IMG/VR virus record: IMGVR_UViG_3300037069_004294
Location: 1 to 29,662 of that record
DNA from: a virus
Reading direction: 5' to 3' (one strand)
DNA length: 29,662 bases
Shown here piece after piece: positions 4,383-29,662 of the stretch; position 1 is the stretch's first letter, and each line of letters starts with the position of its first letter. A program made the position numbers and the translations under genes. The notes beneath the pieces were generated by a model that was not told where the DNA came from, ran no database searches, and saw only the letters and a program-made list of their open reading frames with translations.

Positions 4383-4727
4383 ATGTTTAAAGTACATGAT
4401 ACAGTGGCATGGGCACGTGTTAGAGGTAAAGTAATTGAAGTCAACGATAAGAGCCCATTTGGTGTTAAAGTTTTGTTCGACGGCGTATCAACTCGCTCAT
4501 TTACAGAGGATGGTAGATTGGAAACTTGGCACAAAGAAGTATCATTAAAAAAGTTAGAACATCCTAAACAAGTCATAATAAAAACCATGATCAAATATGT
4601 AGTTATATATAACTCTCCAATAGAGACCCTTTATTACTTTGATTCGTGGCAATTGGCCAATGACTTTCATCAAAAGATACTGAATTCTATAGGACCTATT
4701 CAACTCTCCGGTAGGTATGAAATATAA
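4383..4727 (+). CDS. SH3-like small phage protein (paralogue of the gene at 28624)
   Basis: 114 residues. The first ~65 (MFKVHDTVAW...VRGKVIEVND...FGVKVLFDG...FTEDGR...WHKEVSLK) align with the product of 28624-28986 over its first 65 residues: both share MFKVxDxV, GKVIE, GVxVxF, FTxDG and WHKExSLK. The short alternating strands and glycine turns suggest an SH3/KOW-like barrel, a fold that often binds RNA, DNA or peptides. The C-terminal ~45 residues are unrelated to the paralogue. It is the last plus-strand gene before the hairpin at 4741. Function unknown. Confidence 0.7.
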   Translation: MFKVHDTVAWARVRGKVIEVNDKSPFGVKVLFDGVSTRSFTEDGRLETWHKEVSLKKLEHPKQVIIKTMIKYVVIYNSPIETLYYFDSWQLANDFHQKILNSIGPIQLSGRYEI

Positions 4728-4740
4728 CAATAATTGCTAG

Positions 4741-4787
4741 TTGTTACTTATAGATAACGATACTATTTACTTATTTATAAGTAACAA
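4741..4787. terminator. Hairpin between convergent operons, probable bidirectional terminator
   Basis: A perfect 12-bp inverted repeat, TTGTTACTTATA (4741-4752) with its complement at 4776-4787, lies between the stop of the plus gene (4727) and the stop of the minus holin gene (4789). The stem is AT-rich and the U-runs are poor, so efficiency is uncertain. Position is the strongest argument. Confidence 0.5.
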
Positions 4788-4788
4788 C

Positions 4789-5163
4789 TTATTCTTGTTT
4801 AGTTTTAATTTTCGCAATTAGTCCAGCTAGCAAATGCCTACCAGATATGATTTCAATATTTTCATTGAGAGACAAAAGCTCAACTAAACCGACATAGCTA
4901 CTGGTCATGTTTGTCAGCGGTATACCGGGGGACAGGTAGGTCTCAATGACAAATGCCGCTATAATAGCTACTTGATATACAAGCATTTTAACGACTGAAT
5001 CTTTTAAACCTGAAGATGTAATGGGAATGTTTTGCTTTCTAGAGGCTAATATGCCAGTTACGCAATCAAATAACACAAGTACAAATACAGTTACAATAGC
5101 TGCTTTAATGGGAGCAAAAATAGTTAATATGACTAAACTTAGTTTCTTTATACCGTCTAACAT
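4789..5163 (-). CDS. Holin of the phi29/Cp-1-like (holin 4) type
   Basis: 124 residues with three hydrophobic segments: about 8-25 (LVILTIFAPIKAAIVTVF), 26-40 (VLVLFDCVTGILAS) and 60-75 (MLVYQVAIIAAFVIETYL). The motif FDCVTGILASRK followed by ITSSGLKDSVVKM is characteristic of the phage holin / toxin-secretion family, which forms inner-membrane holes that release the endolysin. GGGAG/AGGA precedes the ATG inside the end of the upstream zinc-ribbon gene (7-bp overlap). It is the last gene of the tail operon, so it would be expressed late. The endolysin is on the other strand at 3457. Confidence 0.75.
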   Translation of the reverse strand: MLDGIKKLSLVILTIFAPIKAAIVTVFVLVLFDCVTGILASRKQNIPITSSGLKDSVVKMLVYQVAIIAAFVIETYLSPGIPLTNMTSSYVGLVELLSLNENIEIISGRHLLAGLIAKIKTKQE

Positions 5164-11156: not shown

Positions 11157-11185
11157 TTGACTAATGTTTACTTATGCCATATGCT
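11157..11185 (+). promoter_or_regulatory. Sigma70-like promoter for the plus-strand accessory genes
   Basis: TTGACT (11157-11162), a 17-bp spacer and TATGCT (11180-11185), followed by TTATTTATG. The same arrangement, TTGACTAAT near -35 and GCTTTAATTATG after -10, is found on the minus strand at 28565-28593. It is back-to-back with the late promoter at 11141-11155. Confidence 0.6.
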
Positions 11186-11215
11186 TTATTTATGTAGAAT
11201 GGCGCTCTACGTTTT

Positions 11216-11282
11216 ATAAGCAGGTGCCCTAGGTGAACTCCCAGTGGCTAAGTGGATGTAGACGTCAGTCCAGCCTGCTTAT
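11216..11282 (+). ncRNA. Structured leader RNA candidate B (67 nt)
   Basis: The ends pair perfectly (ATAAGCAGG with CCTGCTTAT). Inside, one arm forms between GCC at 11226 and GGC at 11246-11248 and another between TGGA (11253) and TCCA. A separate 5-bp hairpin (GTAGA...TCTAC) lies at about 11195-11211. It is between the promoter at 11157-11185 and the GTG start at 11310, so it should be the untranslated leader. It has the same length and a similar first arm (TGAA loop, TGGCT...AA after it) as the element at 28491-28557. A cis-regulatory role is inferred; it does not fit a riboswitch or tRNA I know. Confidence 0.5.
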
Positions 11283-11309
11283 ACTGTATTTTTATTAAAG
11301 GAGAGATGT

Positions 11310-11900
11310 GTGAATATTTTTGATTTTTTTAAGCGAAAAGATAAAATTTCTGTTAAAACAATAGCTAAACTAAATCCATGTAAAGATAGATTCAATAATT
11401 ATTTAAAGCATTACAGCGATAAAACCTTTACACCTAAACAGTTTATGGGTTTAAGGAATATTAGCCATAATGACAAAATATGGGTAGGAGTAAGGCTAAT
11501 GGATAAAAAGTTACTACGTTTTGCTGCAGCAGATATAGCTGAACTGGTTTTGCCAATATTTGAACAGCAACATCCTAACGATAATAGGCCAAGGCTAGCC
11601 ATTTTAGCAGCTAGAGCTAAAATATTAGATATAAAAGCTTGTAAAGAAGCAGCTGCTGATACTGCTAATGCTGCTGATGCTGCTGATACTGCTAATGCTG
11701 CTTATGTTGCTGATGCTGCTGATGCTGCTTTGGCTGCTTACTATGCTGCTTTGGCTGCTTACTATGCTGCTTTGGCTGCTATTAATGTTACTTATGTTGC
11801 TTATGCTGCTTATTATGCTGCTTGGCCTGCTAATGCTCAGACAAACAGCCAAAATATTGAAAAGAAAATTAGAACAATCTTATTGAGGTATTTGAAATGA
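11310..11900 (+). CDS. Alanine-repeat protein resembling Imm-5-type putative immunity proteins, 196 aa
   Basis: GTG start with AAAGGAGAG at the right distance. The N-terminal ~110 residues (LNPCKDRFNNYLKHYSDK...RFAAADIAELVLPIFEQQ...RPRLAILAARAK) follow the layout of a widespread family with an Ala-rich tail, some members of which are labelled putative immunity protein Imm-5. The C-terminal ~70 residues are almost entirely AAD, AAY and ALAA repeats encoded almost only by GCT, with a 21-bp tandem repeat. These probably form amphipathic helices. It is the first gene after leader RNA B. Its role in a phage is unknown; immunity or toxin protection is only inferred from the family label. Confidence 0.65.
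   Translation: MNIFDFFKRKDKISVKTIAKLNPCKDRFNNYLKHYSDKTFTPKQFMGLRNISHNDKIWVGVRLMDKKLLRFAAADIAELVLPIFEQQHPNDNRPRLAILAARAKILDIKACKEAAADTANAADAADTANAAYVADAADAALAAYYAALAAYYAALAAINVTYVAYAAYYAAWPANAQTNSQNIEKKIRTILLRYLK
11724..11780 (+). repeat. 21-bp tandem repeat inside the alanine-rich gene
   Basis: The unit GCTGCTTTGGCTGCTTACTA(T) occurs twice completely (11724-11744, 11745-11765) and then for 15 bases (11766-11780), encoding ALAAYYA. Surrounding sequence (from about 11650) is a looser GCTGCTGAT/GCTAAT array. Such arrays are prone to slippage and length change. Confidence 0.85.
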
Positions 11901-12535
11901 ATTTGAATGAAGAAATCTTGCCTTATATAGATGGAAACGGTTTGGTGGCTCCAAATTTAGTGCCGGCTGGAGTTGTAAGAGCATCTGACAACGGTCCTAT
12001 GTTTACCGCTGAGTATCTTATAATGGCAAATCGCAATAATTGTTTGCCTGATGCTAATGCACCCTGTTCTTTAACGGAGATATTTAGGTGCATCGGATTT
12101 GACAAAGAATTACATAGAGCCCCCAATGACACAACTCCCGATGAAGTGGACGACTATTACGGTGTCATTGCGGCTTATTCTGAACTACATATTAGGCCTG
12201 GTTTTAAACTACCCATTAGACTTTGGAGACAGCCTCAACTTCTATATGCTTACTTATTAGCAAAAGGCATTCCTTCATTAGTTATGTTACCTTTAATGCT
12301 GTATACGAGCATTGTAATAGCTACTAGCTGTGTTAATGCACCGGCTTCAAATACAGATGCTAGACGTCTTAGTTGGCTTCTAATTCAAAGCGTTAAAACT
12401 AAAAGCTGGTTTTGTAGATTGGTTTCTAAACTTTGGTATAATAGACTATACAAAGTGTTTCCAAATGGCATGAAAGATGTAGCTAAAGAATATTATAGAG
12501 ATAATCACCCATTTCAAAGATATTGGATAGATTAG
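11897..12535 (+). CDS. Conserved hypothetical phage protein, 212 aa
   Basis: The ATG overlaps the preceding stop (ATGA). The sequence lacks a signal peptide. Around residues 122-140 a hydrophobic segment (KGIPSLVMLPLMLYTSIVIA) could be a membrane helix. Other features are a conserved-looking start (LPYIDGNGLVAPN), an aromatic and Arg-rich middle (LPIRLWRQPQLLYAYLL) and a polar C-terminus (NGMKDVAKEYYRDNHPF). I do not recognise a domain with certainty. Neighbouring genes 11310 and 12537 form a compact three-gene set with it. A role at the cell envelope is possible. Confidence 0.65.
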   Translation: MNLNEEILPYIDGNGLVAPNLVPAGVVRASDNGPMFTAEYLIMANRNNCLPDANAPCSLTEIFRCIGFDKELHRAPNDTTPDEVDDYYGVIAAYSELHIRPGFKLPIRLWRQPQLLYAYLLAKGIPSLVMLPLMLYTSIVIATSCVNAPASNTDARRLSWLLIQSVKTKSWFCRLVSKLWYNRLYKVFPNGMKDVAKEYYRDNHPFQRYWID

Positions 12536-12536
12536 T

Positions 12537-12911
12537 ATGACAGATTTAGAATATCAACAAATATATGATGCAGCCAGTTACATAGGTAACTACTGTGCTA
12601 AATGGGGGAGATTGGGCGGTCAATATAAAGAAAAATACGGCACCGTGCGATTCTACGCTATGTTTGGTGCCTTTTATTTACATTCTTTAATTTATCCAGG
12701 CTACTATTATAATCAGTTTCCAAGGTGGTTATGGGTCATGGATATCTACTATATAGGCCCTTTTATAGAGAGGGTGTTCGGTGCCATATTATATAAATGG
12801 CAATCAATCATATATAGAAGAGCTTATAAAAATGCTCTTGCTAAATGGCCCCACTTAAGAGAACCTATTTTAAAGTGTTCAGACTTACCTGATTTATTAC
12901 AAGGGCTGTAA
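12537..12911 (+). CDS. Conserved hypothetical phage protein, 124 aa
   Basis: The motif CAKWGRLGGQYKEKYGTVRF and the following LHSLIYPGYYYNQFPRWLW match a pattern I have met in hypothetical proteins of several unrelated large or medium phages, suggesting a mobile accessory gene. It is aromatic-rich, with a possible membrane-associated helix and a basic C-terminus. It starts one base after the upstream stop. It is convergent with the large minus-strand gene ending at 12962, and no obvious terminator lies in the 50-bp gap. Function unknown. Confidence 0.65.
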   Translation: MTDLEYQQIYDAASYIGNYCAKWGRLGGQYKEKYGTVRFYAMFGAFYLHSLIYPGYYYNQFPRWLWVMDIYYIGPFIERVFGAILYKWQSIIYRRAYKNALAKWPHLREPILKCSDLPDLLQGL

Positions 12912-19219: not shown

Positions 19220-19249
19220 TTTATGCCTCGGAAGGTATAGATTACTCAT

Positions 19250-19391
19250 AATACTCTGCAGAGTATTTATTAATAGGGTAATTTTGTAGATAAATTGCAT
19301 AATAAGTTATGCAATTTTGTGAGAAATTGAGTAATAAGTTAGCCGGATTACCCTATTAATACTGGATTACCCTATTAATACTGGATTATCC
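19250..19391. repeat. Cluster of palindrome, hairpin and direct/inverted repeats
   Basis: The tail gap between 19147 and 19386 holds an 18-bp palindrome (19250-19267), an 11-bp hairpin with TAAG loop (arms 19292-19302 and 19307-19317) and three copies of the 15-mer ATTACCCTATTAATA: inverted at 19268-19282, direct at 19347-19361 and 19366-19380. The last two belong to a 19-bp tandem (GGATTACCCTATTAATACT) whose truncated third copy (GGATTATCC, 19383-19391) runs into the stop codon of 19386-22325. No U-run suits a terminator on the minus strand. It could be a regulatory, replication or packaging-related site; function unknown. Confidence 0.75.
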
Positions 19392-22325
19392 ATAAGTCGA
19401 AGAAGCAGGCATTTTGAAAGGACCTTTCTTCTGTGCCACATTAAAAGCAAGAGCTGATAGTCTCAGACCTTCAGTAGTAGATACCGGGGAGTCTTGCAAA
19501 GTGAGCTGTATAGACTCACACTTTTGCAGCTGGGTAAACACTCTATATTGCATGGGTATCTGACTCCCTGCAATTGATATGTTATCAACTTGAGTGATTG
19601 TACTATCAAAGTTATAGGCTAAACTAACGGATAAATTTGTAGCGCTTTCAGACTCACCTAATACCAGAAATTGCTTAACTCTTTGAAAGTTTTGAATACC
19701 CGCAAAGGACATCCAACCTGTTGTCAGCTTTAAGCTTATAGGAGTTGCAGATGGATCTGCATATACACCGGGGGTTTCTACGTTTGTCATGCCAGTAGAG
19801 GTTAAATAGGTGTAATTACCTAGATATATTACAGCATCTGAAGCATTTATGTTAGTGAATATAGACCATTGTTTAACAAAATAATCATAAACTAACACTA
19901 TGCCGGTATTTAAACTCAATCTAATTTGTGTGGTACCGGCTATCATTTGAGCTGAAGTAACATTAGCAGAATTGTATCGCTCTACAGCGGCTCCAATGTA
20001 GCTAAGGCTAAGGTCTCTTTGTAATAGATAAATTCCTTTAGGAGATTGAAAGAATAAGCCAGCAGGAGTTAATAGTATAGAACTTTGATTTATGCACCCT
20101 GTGTCAGAAGAAATAATTTGCGGGTAACTAAAATCATTGCTTTGTCCATTAGGAGCTGGGCCATCTCCAATAACATACCATATGTTGGAAGCTTTAAAGA
20201 ATATAAGTTTATCATCCATGGTGTTTAAAGCTGTTATATTACCACCTTTTTCATCGATATTTTGTGTTAATAAATCAGAAAATTCAGCAGGAAACCCCTG
20301 TATCACTTGTTTAGAAAACCACCATTGCAATGGATTTTCAGCGTCTACAGATATTATTCTGTTCTTAAATGAGGTAATTAAATTAGTTGTTGGAGGACCT
20401 ATGTTTTCTAATTCACCGCCTGTTGTGTATAGCTGTTGATTTTGAATAATAACACTATCCTGGCTATTGTCTGTGAATGAAACCGAACCTACTAAATTAT
20501 TAGCAGCCCTTTGTGTCAAATAATATACAGTTCCTCCATTTGTGGTCCTATATAGGTCAACTGTTACATCCATAGCTTTGTAAACTTCAGAAACTCCCAA
20601 ACCTGTAGAGATGATTGTACCTGTTACGCCGGTTAGTCCTATGGGAGTAGCAGTTTGTACTTGGGAGGGTATAGATGGAGCGCTTCTATGTAAATTGCCT
20701 TGAAAATCTATCCAACTATACACAACAAGGTAACTATAAGTATCTGTGGAACCAGGAGTATTTGTGCTTGCAGCTATTATTTCAGGAAACAAATTAAAGC
20801 CTGCTTCTGCTACTCCTAATCCATCAAAAATAGATAATATCCCGCCAACAAAAGTTAAGTTGTTAGCTAATGACACATTTAATAACTTTTCATCAAACAA
20901 AGTTGTAAGTTCAGATATTACAAATTGAGAAACTATTGCTCCTGAAGCTAAAGATGTTTGAGCAGCTTTAAAATAAGGAAGTTGAAAATTACTCCATTTA
21001 ACTAATCCTTGAAGATTACTACCATAATAAGCGGTGTTTAAAGCAAATTTTCCAGCAACAGTTGATTCTACAGCAGTTACACCGGGTCCTCCTGAATAAG
21101 GAGCTCCTACGGATATAATAAATTGAGTTGCTTGAGCTTGTTTAAGATGAATGACTGAATAGTAATATCTAGAGTCTTGAACAAATGCATTAGAATATAA
21201 CCTAGTATTGTAAGTTGGTTTGGCTACTAATGAAAATACTGACGGAGAGGTTCTATAGTTCTGAACCACAGCGTTCATTGTAAAGTAATTTACAGTGTCG
21301 CTAGATTGTCGTTCAAAGAATACTCCTAAATCAGTTCCATTTAATGCCCCAGTTACTTTAGCATCCCCTACGTCAGAAGATGCAGCAAAAGTAGCTAGTA
21401 AAGTTAAATTATAGTCATACCGTTTGCCTACTACATTTACTCCTGCTTTTGTATATAATACAACTAATTCGCTGTTAATTAAATCAACTAAAATCTCTGT
21501 TCCTAAAGTAATGTCTGTGGTTGTTACTGTTACTGTGCTTACAAACGTTAAAGAACCTGCTCCCCCGAGTGCGTATTTATCTATTACTAAATCATTTCCT
21601 CCACCGGCTGTATACAAAAGGAATAAATTAGTTCCATTGAATACTGGTACCATCGGTGGAGCAAGTCTATTATCATTTATAGTTAAAGAAAAGTTGTGTG
21701 TACCGCCCGTAATTTGAACGGTTCCTATTGTTGTTGTTGAAGTGGTGCCATCATCGGATCTTACTGTTGCTCCGAACTCTGTGTTGAGTGAAAGAGTTTG
21801 TATATTAACAATTGTGCCTGGAGTAGTTACTGCTGATATTGTGGTTCCAGTTACAGGTACATTTGTTATATAATCCGATAAATAATATCTTAAAGAACTG
21901 GTGACTAGCAGGTCTGGATAAGCTACAAATTTAAAGTTATTTATTCTGCTCACGGAGGATGGATAGCTTGAGGTTCCTGTAGTTCCTGCTAAACTTTTAG
22001 TAGATAATCTAAGATTAGTTTTATAACCACTTTTAGCCCATGATGCTTTTTCTGGAAGGTAAATAAATACATTAGTATTATCAGTTAATACTAAATTGTC
22101 ATTTAAAAGGCCTAATGAACTTCCTTTAATTAATGTCGTAGGTGAGACATTATCGTAAATTTCATCACTTAAAGATAAATACCCATTTCTTTTAATTATT
22201 TCTCCCGGTGTTGTAAAAACACCGTTTTCTAGTGTTAGTAGCTGTCCTGCAGATATTTGCTTAGGATCAGTTTTAGTGTTTAATCCTTGAGCAAATGATA
22301 TGGGTATTACAGTTTCTTGTAACAT
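19386..22325 (-). CDS. Large virion protein, head-tail/stabilisation-like, 979 aa
   Basis: The N-terminus (VIPISFAQGLNTKTDPKQIS...LLTLENGVFT...IIKRNGYLSL) is a pattern I know from large structural proteins of podovirus-like phages, annotated as stabilisation or tail-tube-associated. The rest is beta-rich with many Thr/Ser/Asn, consistent with a beta-propeller or beta-sandwich assembly. The ATG follows the stop of 22326 immediately (TAAATG). Probably a head-to-tail connector or tail-hub component that closes the portal after packaging. Exact role is inferred. Confidence 0.7.
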   Translation of the reverse strand: MLQETVIPISFAQGLNTKTDPKQISAGQLLTLENGVFTTPGEIIKRNGYLSLSDEIYDNVSPTTLIKGSSLGLLNDNLVLTDNTNVFIYLPEKASWAKSGYKTNLRLSTKSLAGTTGTSSYPSSVSRINNFKFVAYPDLLVTSSLRYYLSDYITNVPVTGTTISAVTTPGTIVNIQTLSLNTEFGATVRSDDGTTSTTTIGTVQITGGTHNFSLTINDNRLAPPMVPVFNGTNLFLLYTAGGGNDLVIDKYALGGAGSLTFVSTVTVTTTDITLGTEILVDLINSELVVLYTKAGVNVVGKRYDYNLTLLATFAASSDVGDAKVTGALNGTDLGVFFERQSSDTVNYFTMNAVVQNYRTSPSVFSLVAKPTYNTRLYSNAFVQDSRYYYSVIHLKQAQATQFIISVGAPYSGGPGVTAVESTVAGKFALNTAYYGSNLQGLVKWSNFQLPYFKAAQTSLASGAIVSQFVISELTTLFDEKLLNVSLANNLTFVGGILSIFDGLGVAEAGFNLFPEIIAASTNTPGSTDTYSYLVVYSWIDFQGNLHRSAPSIPSQVQTATPIGLTGVTGTIISTGLGVSEVYKAMDVTVDLYRTTNGGTVYYLTQRAANNLVGSVSFTDNSQDSVIIQNQQLYTTGGELENIGPPTTNLITSFKNRIISVDAENPLQWWFSKQVIQGFPAEFSDLLTQNIDEKGGNITALNTMDDKLIFFKASNIWYVIGDGPAPNGQSNDFSYPQIISSDTGCINQSSILLTPAGLFFQSPKGIYLLQRDLSLSYIGAAVERYNSANVTSAQMIAGTTQIRLSLNTGIVLVYDYFVKQWSIFTNINASDAVIYLGNYTYLTSTGMTNVETPGVYADPSATPISLKLTTGWMSFAGIQNFQRVKQFLVLGESESATNLSVSLAYNFDSTITQVDNISIAGSQIPMQYRVFTQLQKCESIQLTLQDSPVSTTEGLRLSALAFNVAQKKGPFKMPASSTYG

Positions 22326-24679: not shown

Positions 24680-25141
24680 CTATTTATTAAGGAATAGGGT
24701 TTCAGTGTTTCTGGTAATATGGCTTAATTCTTGAATCATTTCATCATAATGCTTAATATAGCATTTTTTGATAGCCATTTGGTGATGCATGATACTTTTA
24801 GGACAATTATCGTCATATAACTCATCGGAATGTGCCCTGCCCATGGCGCAATGACCTAGTTCATGAAAAATAATCATTTGTTTTCTAAGTGGATCTAATA
24901 ACTCCCAGTATTCTTTAAGTATTTCCACGGTATCTGTCGCGTGAAAGCAATATCCTACAGCACCGGGTGAGTTAACACTTAGTTGGTCCACTAATTGTAC
25001 ATTTATTTCAGATACATCTCTGTGGTACATATATGAGAAATTATAAACATAAAAGGTGACTTCTGAGTTACTATGTTTAATAGCGCTTGCTAGGCTAGGT
25101 AAAAAGAATATAATCAATAAGGTAATTCCAAATAACTTCAT
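24680..25141 (-). CDS. Secreted metzincin-like zinc protease, paralogue of 25827-26261, 153 aa
   Basis: Start chosen at ATG 25141 because AAGGA lies 7 bases ahead. An in-frame start at 25174 would add an N-terminal extension that disrupts the signal peptide. MKLFGITLLIIFFLPSLASA is a Sec signal. Then comes HELGHCAMGRAH, zinc ligands in an HExxH plus distal His layout, and CPKSIMHHQ, an SIM Met-turn as in metzincins. Cysteines flank the site (CFH, HC, NCPKS, KCYIKH), predicting disulfides. The paralogue shares all of these. It is the last gene of the accessory operon. The substrate may be a periplasmic or surface protein. Confidence 0.75.
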   Translation of the reverse strand: MKLFGITLLIIFFLPSLASAIKHSNSEVTFYVYNFSYMYHRDVSEINVQLVDQLSVNSPGAVGYCFHATDTVEILKEYWELLDPLRKQMIIFHELGHCAMGRAHSDELYDDNCPKSIMHHQMAIKKCYIKHYDEMIQELSHITRNTETLFLNK

Positions 25142-25212
25142 AAGATAGTCCTTAAATTTTGAACAAAAGTTCATGAATTTTAGTCAATATGATAAAAATC
25201 AATACAGTTGTT

Positions 25213-25738: not shown

Positions 25739-25762
25739 ACGTTCCTCAGTTTCTATGATTAA

Positions 25763-25791
25763 AGTATCTCAAACTTGAGTAAATTTGTCAA
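25763..25791 (-). promoter_or_regulatory. Sigma70 promoter for the accessory operon
   Basis: A perfect TTGACA -35 (25791-25786), a 17-bp spacer and GATACT -10 (25768-25763), followed by TTT, as in the promoter at 442-470. The spacer contains a short inverted repeat (CTCAA, two bases, TTGAG), which could be an operator. It drives the minus-strand ORFs from 25738 to at least 25213. Confidence 0.72.
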
Positions 25792-25826: not shown

Positions 25827-26261
25827 TTAGAAATTTTTGATTATATAATTAGGAAGTTCTTTTAATAAGTCTTGAGAATGAGCATTATAACAGCTATCAC
25901 TCATTAAATAGGTGCTCATGATGCTCTTAGGACAATTATCGTCGTACACATCGTTTCTATGTATTCGATTAAAAATGCAGTGTCCTAATTCATGGAAAAT
26001 TAACACTTTTCTTGATGTTTCGCTTAACATCTCCCAGTAATCCCGTCTAACTTCGACGTGGTCAAAGCCCATTTCACACTGGGCAAGTTCATTATTAGTG
26101 GGAAACATAGAAACGAATTCAATTTCCGTGTCTAGAATATCAGCACTATATTGCCGGTGAAATGCCTGTAAATAAGGCAAGAAGGCAGGATCTTGCGGTT
26201 TAGGAGAACCGCAAGCAGATAATAAAGCTAACAATAAACAACAAACGTACCGCTTTAGCAT
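25827..26261 (-). CDS. Lipoprotein metzincin-like zinc protease, 144 aa
   Basis: MLKRYVCCLLLALLSACGS is a lipoprotein signal, Cys17 being the lipid acceptor. The catalytic motif HELGHCIFNRIH and the Met-turn CPKSIMSTY match the secreted paralogue at 24680-25141, with the same arrangement of flanking cysteines. The preceding block (DHVEVRRDYWEMLSETSRK) parallels TVEILKEYWELLDPLRK of the paralogue. It is anchored in the envelope and so could act on outer-membrane or periplasmic targets. The start codon lies inside the 14-bp palindrome at 26256-26292; the ribosome site is AGAGG in its loop. Confidence 0.75.
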   Translation of the reverse strand: MLKRYVCCLLLALLSACGSPKPQDPAFLPYLQAFHRQYSADILDTEIEFVSMFPTNNELAQCEMGFDHVEVRRDYWEMLSETSRKVLIFHELGHCIFNRIHRNDVYDDNCPKSIMSTYLMSDSCYNAHSQDLLKELPNYIIKNF

Positions 26262-27610: not shown

Positions 27611-27831
27611 TGAATTACCTCTATGCATGAATAATCCTGAGTGCAGTCAGGAAGAGTTCCTATTATGGGTTGATAAACATCAGATAATATGGTGCCATCT
27701 CTTAATTTAACTCCACAATATCCATAGGAATTACAGCCTCCTACAATAGCTATTAAGCTATGGTATTTTTTATGTTTTATAGCGCATCCAGTTATTATAA
27801 TTACGCAAATTATAATTAATGCTGTTTTCAT
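27607..27831 (-). CDS. Small lipoprotein, 74 aa
   Basis: The start at ATG 27831 overlaps the stop of the preceding gene (ATGA). MKTALIIICVIIITGC is a lipoprotein signal, with Cys16 as acceptor. The mature part is short and Cys-rich (GGCNSYGYCGVKLRDGT...PDCTQDYSC), predicting two disulfides and a beta-hairpin core. It is one of two consecutive lipoproteins. It could coat the outer membrane, for example to block receptor use or superinfection. Confidence 0.7.
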   Translation of the reverse strand: MKTALIIICVIIITGCAIKHKKYHSLIAIVGGCNSYGYCGVKLRDGTILSDVYQPIIGTLPDCTQDYSCIEVIQ

Positions 27832-28250
27832 TGAGTCACCTGGCAATTAGTCAACACGGTGAAGTTGCAAGGGGCTGTTGTGGATGTTGAAGCGTAATAT
27901 CCAGAAGGAATAAGAGCTAGCCAAGCATTTCTGCCGTCCCAATAAACACCGTAAATGGAGTTGTCTATGCATATTCCATACTCGGGGAAAGTGGTGGGGT
28001 AATTTGTTGTTACACTAGGACAAAACTGCACAGTGCTTACAGAGGGTGCATCTTTGCCATTTACTCCATTGGTTCCGTTTAAACCATTAGACACTTCTAC
28101 CTGAGAACCATCTGGGCATAAAATCAAAGCCCCTGTGTCAGTTTTAACCACAGTACAGGATTTAGAAGGAGACGTTGCAGTTGGAGGAATATCAGATACA
28201 CCTGAACCACATCCTGTTAATATGAACACAAAAATAATAATTTTTTTCAT
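27828..28250 (-). CDS. Lipoprotein with collagen-like Gly-Asn/Val triplets, 140 aa
   Basis: MKKIIIFVFILTGCGSG is a lipoprotein signal with acceptor Cys14. The segment LNGTNGVNGKDAPSVSTV looks like short collagen-like or tail-collar triplets, and the C-terminal region (FPEYGICIDNSIYGVYWDGRNAWLALIPSGYYASTSTT) is beta-rich with paired cysteines. It lies in tandem with the smaller lipoprotein. A phage-encoded lipoprotein with a beta head suggests a surface role in the infected host, such as receptor masking. The evidence is only sequence pattern. Confidence 0.72.
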   Translation of the reverse strand: MKKIIIFVFILTGCGSGVSDIPPTATSPSKSCTVVKTDTGALILCPDGSQVEVSNGLNGTNGVNGKDAPSVSTVQFCPSVTTNYPTTFPEYGICIDNSIYGVYWDGRNAWLALIPSGYYASTSTTAPCNFTVLTNCQVTQ

Positions 28251-28251
28251 G

Positions 28252-28359
28252 TCAATTCTTTCTTAAATAATGGCAATAGATAAAATCTGCTCGCATATGA
28301 GCCTTGCCGTGCTTTCCAAGAAATCTTATTAAAAACCAACGTTTATAATAAGATTTCAT
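28252..28359 (-). CDS. 35-aa basic peptide
   Basis: ATG overlaps the stop of the preceding 37-aa ORF. It encodes an Arg/Lys/Tyr-rich peptide (MKSYYKRWFLIRFLGKHGKA) and ends one base before the lipoprotein start. Its first 35 bases lie in an 11-bp inverted repeat (28321-28356), so the region may act partly at RNA level. Translation is plausible but unproven. Confidence 0.45.
   Translation of the reverse strand: MKSYYKRWFLIRFLGKHGKAHMRADFIYCHYLRKN
28321..28356 (-). repeat. 11-bp inverted repeat at an ORF junction
   Basis: AAATCTTATTA (28321-28331) pairs with TAATAAGATTT (28346-28356) around a 14-base loop. It lies across the start of the 35-aa ORF and could control its translation or shape the accessory mRNA. 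Confidence 0.6.
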
Positions 28360-28469
28360 TGCTTGTTCATTTCTTCCTTAAAAATTAAGAATATATAAAT
28401 AACAAGAAAAGCTGGAAGAGATACAGGAAATGCTATCATAAGTAAACCGACTGCTAATGACGTCTTCAT
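28356..28469 (-). CDS. 37-aa membrane peptide, first gene of the lipoprotein operon
   Basis: AAGGAG lies seven bases before the ATG. The peptide has a long hydrophobic stretch (LLMIAFPVSLPAFLVIYIFL) and a charged end (KEEMNKQ). It is the first ORF after leader RNA A. A second ORF starts in its stop. Its function at the membrane is unknown. The good ribosome site is the main support. Confidence 0.62.
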   Translation of the reverse strand: MKTSLAVGLLMIAFPVSLPAFLVIYIFLIFKEEMNKQ

Positions 28470-28490
28470 ATAGTTACTCCTTAGTACTTT

Positions 28491-28557
28491 TGAGGGCGGC
28501 CTCTATGCCTACAGCTAGCGTGCTCTATTAAGCCAGTGATTCAGTTCTGGCCCCTCA
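28491..28557 (-). ncRNA. Structured leader RNA candidate A (67 nt)
   Basis: The ends TGAGGG and CCCTCA pair. GCCAG and CTGGC (bases 7-11 and 22-26 of the element) form an inner arm with a TGAA-containing loop, and TTAATAGAG follows. It begins about where RNA should start from the promoter at 28565-28593 and ends just before the ribosome site of the 37-aa gene. It has the same length as element B (11216-11282), the same position relative to the promoter, and an equivalent first arm. A tRNA was excluded because it lacks a full cloverleaf. Confidence 0.5.
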
Positions 28558-28564
28558 TAATTAA

Positions 28565-28593
28565 AGCTTACTATAGTATACAAAATTAGTCAA
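28565..28593 (-). promoter_or_regulatory. Promoter of the lipoprotein operon
   Basis: TTGACT (28593-28588), a 17-bp spacer and TAAGCT (28570-28565), then TTAATTATG. It parallels the plus-strand promoter at 11157-11185 (TTGACT, 17 bp, TATGCT, TTATTTATG). The -10 box on its own is weak; the support comes from the parallel. Confidence 0.5.
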
Positions 28594-28623: not shown

Positions 28624-28986
28624 TCATTCTTCCTCCACTTCAAATTCTAGAGTTACTTTAACGTTAGAATAATGGCCATTGAGATAAGTAGACAATTGAT
28701 CTGAAAAATAAATATGAATTGGATCTCTTTGGTTATAAGAATTTACACTAATTTTAGCTGAAGGATCGAAGATATTCACTTTTTTCGTTCTTTGAGGCCG
28801 ATCTATAAGCTTTAGTGACGGCTCTTTATGCCACGCTTCCGATAAACCGTCTCTGGTAAATCCATAAGTTTTTAGTTCTTTTTGAATCAAAAACTCTACA
28901 GCCACACCATAGAGCCTTTCTTCATCGGTCTCTATTACTTTACCTTTAACCCCAAAAGCTTCTACAATATCGCCTACTTTAAACAT
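28624..28986 (-). CDS. SH3-like small phage protein, paralogue of 4383-4727
   Basis: I take ATG 28986 (MFKVGDIVEAFGVKGKVIE). A longer in-frame start at 29007 would place the -10 box inside the gene and does not match the paralogue, which also begins MFKV. A strong GGAGG stands before it. The first 65 residues match 4383-4727 (GKVIE, GVAVEF, FTRDG, WHKEPSLK). The remaining ~50 are a distinct C-terminal tail. The fold is likely an SH3/KOW-like barrel. Its own promoter and adjacent palindrome suggest it is a separately regulated accessory gene. Confidence 0.72.
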   Translation of the reverse strand: MFKVGDIVEAFGVKGKVIETDEERLYGVAVEFLIQKELKTYGFTRDGLSEAWHKEPSLKLIDRPQRTKKVNIFDPSAKISVNSYNQRDPIHIYFSDQLSTYLNGHYSNVKVTLEFEVEEE

Positions 28987-29005
28987 TTGCAACTCCTCCA
29001 ATGCC

Positions 29006-29034
29006 ATTGTAAGTCTTATTTTGGGGTTTGTCCA
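29006..29034 (-). promoter_or_regulatory. Strong sigma70-like promoter
   Basis: TGGACA (29034-29029), a 17-bp spacer and TACAAT (29011-29006), both five of six to consensus. RNA would start about 28999, just before GGAGG, leaving a very short leader to the 28986 start codon. Confidence 0.7.
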
Positions 29035-29077: not shown

Positions 29078-29112
29078 AAAATAAAAAAGGCAGGGTTTTT
29101 GGCCCTGCCTTC
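29078..29112 (-). terminator. Intrinsic terminator after the capsid gene
   Basis: A 9-bp stem AAGGCAGGG / CCCTGCCTT (29087-29095, 29103-29111) with a 7-base loop is followed on the minus strand by TTTTTTATTTT. It lies about 30 bases after the capsid stop at 29142, consistent with limiting read-through into the accessory block. Confidence 0.85.
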
Positions 29113-29141: not shown

Positions 29142-29662
29142 TTATGCAGACAATTGGACAACCATGTTGCGCCCAGGTGCGGAACAAATAAGATTTCCGT
29201 AGTATGCGATACGAATTTCTAATGCATCCGCATTTCCGACGCGAAGTCCTTCAAGACCTTCCATACCGTAGGTCAAGATGTGAGGCACTTTACCTAGTGA
29301 ACGAAGTTTCCAAGTGTTCATGGTCAAGCAATAAGCAGTTTGAGCTGGGCAGCTTCTGTCGGCCAAGATTTCAACAGCGCCGTAAGCGGATTGGAATCGG
29401 ATACCGTCGAAGGCAACTTCAACTTCATCGTGTTTAACTTGAACATATTGAACTTTAGCGCCTAAACTATTAACAAGGGCAGAGTAAGAAGCGAAGTCCA
29501 TGATAATAATATCGAACTTTGCACCTTCTCGGTTTCCGAATGCTAAAGCGTTGGTGATACCTTCTTCAATCGTGTATGATTGAGCATTGTATCGAAGTCC
29601 ACCCAATCGTGTTGGGTCAGCAGAACGAACAACACCCCAGAAGGTGTCACTGCCGCTTGGAG
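29142..29662 (-). CDS. Probable major capsid protein, C-terminal part (partial)
   Basis: The frame runs off the right end of the window. The visible residues (TFWGVVRSADPTRLGGLRYN... GAKFDIIIMDFASYSALV ... VEVAFDGIRFQSAYGAVEIL ... SLGKVPHILTYGMEGLEGLR ... LICSAPGRNMVVQLSA) follow the pattern of HK97-fold phage capsid proteins, where an 'FWG.VRS' arm, a long A-domain strand and a 'N(L)IC..P..N..L' end are common. An intrinsic terminator follows directly. The exact family cannot be fixed without the N-terminus. It fits the position upstream of a run of late virion genes. Confidence 0.65.
   Translation of the reverse strand, partial: PSGSDTFWGVVRSADPTRLGGLRYNAQSYTIEEGITNALAFGNREGAKFDIIIMDFASYSALVNSLGAKVQYVQVKHDEVEVAFDGIRFQSAYGAVEILADRSCPAQTAYCLTMNTWKLRSLGKVPHILTYGMEGLEGLRVGNADALEIRIAYYGNLICSAPGRNMVVQLSA

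Follow-up and report, generated by a model that had tools for sequence, protein, structure and literature searches.

The closest described counterparts of the locus analysed here are sigma70-type phage promoters of moron or accessory cassettes, the put RNAs of phage HK022, and the 5′-terminal stem-loop leaders of the ompA and papA type. In HK022, putL and putR are two elements of ~70 nt located downstream of PL and PR (PMC9378689), while ompA- and papA-type leaders have been reported as mRNA stabilisers, as cited in PMC3997798 (its references 93–95). The window, by which we mean the whole stretch of DNA analysed, is 29,662 bases (29.7 kb) long and constitutes a linear virus record from an uncultured phage. 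Its gene order consists mainly of minus-strand late structural genes, among which accessory genes are scattered. IMG/VR contained 32 relatives at ~49–62% identity, and contig L003 was 100% identical over 3.3 kb and runs beyond the right end of the window. A tail protein used as a query against an annotated phage collection returned no relatives.

Two sites in the window, promoters A and B, resemble the sigma70-type promoters of moron cassettes in their -35 sequence TTGAC, their 17-nt spacer and their intergenic position before accessory genes among late genes, as well as in the absence of cassette B from the same junction in relatives. Unlike in these promoters, the -10 boxes of A and B are weak and their flanks are conserved to an unusual degree, and no terminator was found to end cassette B. 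Like HK022 put, the leader elements behind them would give two RNAs of ~70 nt downstream of promoters on opposite strands; in contrast to put, they are multi-branched in their predicted folds, show no sequence or structure match to it, and occur in accessory cassettes rather than early operons. With the ompA- and papA-type stabilisers they share, in the predicted folds, paired 5′ ends and hairpins extending to shortly before the Shine-Dalgarno (SD) sequence. On balance, we favour the reading that A and B are two promoters of a sigma70-like class driving moron-like accessory cassettes among late genes, each followed by a separate hairpin-rich 5′ UTR with at most a generic protective role.

Table 1 Features of the two cassettes, their promoters and leaders, and promoter C (window coordinates)
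Feature	Position	Strand	Description
Promoter B	11157–11194	+	TTGACTAAT -N17- GCTTTATTTATG; TTGACTAAT at 11157–11165; -35 TTGACT at 11157–11162; -10 TATGCT at 11180–11185; TTTATTTATG ending at 11194
Extra first hairpin, leader B	11192–11212	+	ATGTAGA/TCTACGT; prediction only; at the expected transcript 5′ end
Leader element B	11215–11283	+	69 nt; outer stem TATAAGCAGG/CCTGCTTATA; predicted three-way junction
SD AAAGGAG, first B gene	11297–11303	+	Sequence
Cassette B gene 1	11310–11900	+	Ala-rich repeat protein; weak Pfam Imm5_like match; phrog_38757 (unknown function)
Cassette B gene 2	11897–12535	+	Relatives searched, none found
Cassette B gene 3	12537–12911	+	Relatives searched, none found
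Promoter C	25754–25791	-	TTGACAAAT -N17- ACTTTAATCATA; between genes, 15 nt before a start codon; without leader element
Next cassette A gene	27828–28250	-	Lipoprotein-like; related contigs G002 and G019 carry homologues
37-codon ORF, directly after leader A	28356–28469	-	Hydrophobic small protein; sequence read directly
SD AAGGAG, first A gene	28477–28482	-	Sequence
Leader element A	28491–28557	-	67 nt; outer stem TGAGGG/CCCTCA; predicted four-way junction
Promoter A	28556–28593	-	TTGACTAAT -N17- GCTTTAATTATG; TTGACTAAT at 28593–28585; -10 TAAGCT at 28570–28565; TTTAATTATG ending at 28556
Strong intrinsic-terminator-like site	29086–29112	-	After major capsid gene 29142–29606; upstream of gene 28624–29007 and promoter A

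Promoters A, B and C and related sites

Promoters A and B have a common layout, consisting of TTGACTAAT, exactly 17 bases and then GCTTTAWTTATG (Table 1). As the first-pass annotation had described, and at the positions it gave, both carry the shared -35, the 17-nt spacer, a -10 box (TAAGCT or TATGCT) and the trailing motif, and both stand upstream of small genes, on opposite strands. When fewer than four mismatches were allowed in the TTGACTAAT-17-GCTTTAWTTATG layout, the window and the related loci contained nothing beyond A, B and the identical L003 copy; a search of IMG/VR with the promoter pattern likewise matched in L003 only. We scored the sites against a sigma70 consensus (-35 near TTGACA, 16–18 nt, -10 near TATAAT; scan threshold 9/12). 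B (TTGACT-17-TATGCT) reached 9/12, A (TTGACT-17-TAAGCT) fell below the threshold, and a third site, promoter C (TTGACA-17-GATACT), reached 10/12. Matches of this type were equally common in shuffled sequence; the evidence that these sites are promoters lies in their similarity as a class and their position before genes.

In a comparison anchored on TTGAC, which tests the resemblance more fairly, 44 sites gave 946 pairs, among which A–B ranked first (21/33 identical), A–C second and B–C tied third. Without anchoring, the 26/38 identity between A and B was not significant; AT-rich shuffles reached this level in 27/100 cases, and identity over 38 bases is therefore insufficient by itself. We then scanned 534 kb (window and related loci) with a matrix built from A, B and C against a shuffled control. 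After the training sites and the L003 copy, the top match was position 2589 of contig L005, which scored 23.1 compared with 19.3 for the best shuffled match. This site has a 17-nt spacer and a start codon 13 nt on, and lies within the equivalent accessory region of L005, with homologues of genes 26315, 26900 and 27368 alongside. The next matches, two sites in contig L015 with start codons 9 and 21 nt downstream, scored 18.0 and 17.3, inside the range of the shuffled control.

These sequence comparisons place A, B, C and L005:2589 in one promoter class. As part of the favoured reading, the class is probably of sigma70 type, with TTGAC(T/A)AAT, 17 nt and then, including the -10 box, TAnnCTTTAATTATG. 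Since the boxes TATGCT and TAAGCT match sigma70 poorly, a phage-encoded or alternative factor could take its place, and the conserved AAT after the -35 and TTTAATTATG after the -10 suggest a lineage-specific flavour. The 5′ UTRs at the C, L005 and L015 sites are short and lack a leader; those of C and L005 measure only ~13–15 bases, indicating that the leader is not part of the promoter class. At A and B, host RNA polymerase would start approximately at the conserved ATG, and the cassettes would be transcribed independently of the late operon, cassette B also against it. Each leader would then form its own hairpin-rich 5′ UTR from +1 to the SD.

Accessory cassettes and their junctions

In contigs G002 and G008, homologues of genes 12962 and 10705 lie within ~100 bp of each other with nothing between them, so cassette B was either inserted here or lost there. 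That these two relatives lack it at this junction makes cassette B moron-like; we use this qualified term because no terminator-like site, and hence none ending the cassette, was found on the plus strand between 10700 and 13000. The Imm5_like match of its first gene (E 3.2e-5) scored 24.3 bits, just below the curated cut-off of 25 bits. Two genes for Imm5-like Ala-rich repeat proteins were also observed in L006, and related repeat proteins in L002 and L042. G002 carries homologues of genes 11310 and 27828 on either side of the helicase in a long gene run, without leaders.

Cassette A begins with a 37-codon ORF, too short for the ORF list with its 40-aa cut-off. The terminator-like site after the major capsid gene would part this cassette from the late transcript (Table 1). 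The capsid-to-tail region also carries accessory genes in relatives, so cassette A is better described as a variable region than as a clean insertion. Several other features were observed. A 17-bp hairpin lies where the 37-codon ORF ends (28320–28357) and is the strongest fold in the 70-nt scan of the window (z -7.4). Cassette A encodes two similar HExxH proteins (25827–26261 and 24680–25174, minus strand), the first with a borderline PhageMetallopep match. By eye, the proteins of 28624–29007 (-) and 4383–4727 (+) look paralogous (MFKV.D...RGKVIE or KGKVIE, ..WHKE.SLK). A 19-bp hairpin between convergent genes (4739–4789) is possibly a bidirectional terminator. An intergenic repeat cluster at 19246–19400 comprises the 15-base TATTAATAGGGTAAT, two downstream inverted copies (19347–19361 and 19366–19380) and an inner hairpin; its minus-strand fold (z -8.2) is far stronger than those of leaders A or B, and it may be a mobile palindromic element or resemble a terminator.

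Predicted structure of the leader elements

The first-pass annotation had placed a 67-nt element with paired ends, a GCC...GGC first arm and a TGAA loop behind each promoter. Both elements are present, with TGAA inside a GCC...GGC first arm, but element B is 69 nt long and the predicted inner folds differ (Table 1). Their distance from the promoter differs as well: element A starts approximately at the expected +1 and element B ~21 bases later, behind a 21-nt hairpin that has no counterpart in A. The outer stem of B comprises 10 bp and is perfect, and 5′-terminal pairing is predicted for both transcripts by folding. Fold stability gave z-scores of about -1.65 for A (top 10% of 70-nt windows) and about -2 to -2.1 for B (top 7%), whereas longer leader stretches folded no better than shuffles (z -0.75 and +0.45). 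The individual hairpins of A and B, as modelled, may still form.

Read by eye, the loops offered only four pairs for SD sequestration in B and none in A. There is no case for attenuation either: the short ORFs located at the conserved ATG or close to it, MRGQN for A and MALYVL for B, have no SD and do not resemble each other. No intrinsic-terminator-like site was detected after either element on its own strand.

Origin and possible role of the leaders

The pair had initially been interpreted as two copies of one regulatory RNA, possibly of the riboswitch or protein-binding leader kind. Because full-length MAFFT alignments of A and B came out misplaced, we used single-sequence covariance models instead of a joint full-length model. 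With filters off and E values up to 10, the model of leader B did not list A, and the model of leader A did not list B. Smith-Waterman comparison from leader A ranked B 538th–1373rd of 5,897 segments, near background; from leader B, A reached the top 1% of overlapping segments, though with the 3′ half of B aligned to the start of the first gene of A rather than to leader A. A covariance search of Rfam 15, riboswitches included, gave no match for the leaders. Among 24 related contigs, no leader copy was found except in L003, which is 100% identical to the window, and the single-sequence models found no covarying homologues in relatives, an outcome that the first-pass annotation had itself named as refuting its interpretation. 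The pattern AGGnGCCnnAnnTGAA...CAnTGGCT had exactly two matches in the window and none in 100 shuffles, a circular result, as the pattern was derived from both copies. In IMG/VR, the hairpin pattern gave L003 and five further matches, and those checked by eye sit inside ORFs; in GTDB genomes, it gave 42 matches, approximately the chance expectation by a rough estimate, none of which, when inspected, looked like a leader behind a promoter. A homologous RNA that binds a ligand or a protein, acts like a riboswitch or by autoregulation, and has been duplicated before two cassettes would account for the paired pattern and for the outer stems closed in both A and B, yet it appears improbable given the reciprocal failure of the models, the lack of Rfam matches and of homologues outside L003, the near-chance number of pattern matches elsewhere, and the homologous downstream genes that lack a leader in G002. 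The favoured reading includes that the A and B leaders are not copies of one regulatory RNA, and the claim of duplication is not supported. Some common origin is still conceivable, since the first 45 nt of the elements align with 27 identical columns and a hand-made alignment of the outer stem contains two compensatory changes between A and B. We regard it as distinctly improbable that the two elements are strongly diverged duplicates of a novel cis-acting phage RNA, which would be either a protein-binding leader or an antiterminator of the put kind and would single out accessory cassettes to be expressed independently of the late operon.

Under the favoured reading, the likeliest role of the leaders, if they have any, would be protective: a base-paired 5′ end may slow 5′-end-dependent mRNA decay while the ribosome site is kept open. 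The similarity of the leaders could instead be a coincidence, with only the promoters mattering and both leaders being ordinary 5′ UTRs without further function. We consider this unlikely, since the perfect outer stem of B and the length of both leaders, far greater than that of the UTRs at other promoters of the class, speak against it; the z-scores, which reach only the top 7–10% of windows, the shuffle-like folding of the longer stretches and the near-background similarity of A and B are nonetheless in its favour. The layout of two 67–69-nt RNAs right after promoters on opposite strands would also suit put-like antiterminators which, by analogy with phage HK022, fold right after the promoter, bind polymerase and allow read-through of cassette terminators. 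However, put consists of two adjacent stem-loops whose copies are similar in sequence, whereas the predicted folds of A and B are unlike each other, and the A and B models gave no notable match to the HK022 early region (best E 0.34, within an annotated CDS), rendering this reading highly improbable. Finally, each element, as a compact foldable unit directly after a promoter, might be a short noncoding RNA that is transcribed from its own promoter and ends before the gene; this is barely credible, given the lack of a terminator-like site behind either element and the SD and start codon directly downstream.

The main outcome at present is the correction of the duplicated-RNA claim, together with the confirmation and extension of the promoter observation. 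Were the put-like reading true, the leaders would be a further natural example of leader RNA that affects polymerase with no phage protein involved. If the favoured reading holds, it would supply a defined promoter motif for a group of uncultured phages and show a possible way for accessory cassettes to stay expressed beside late genes.
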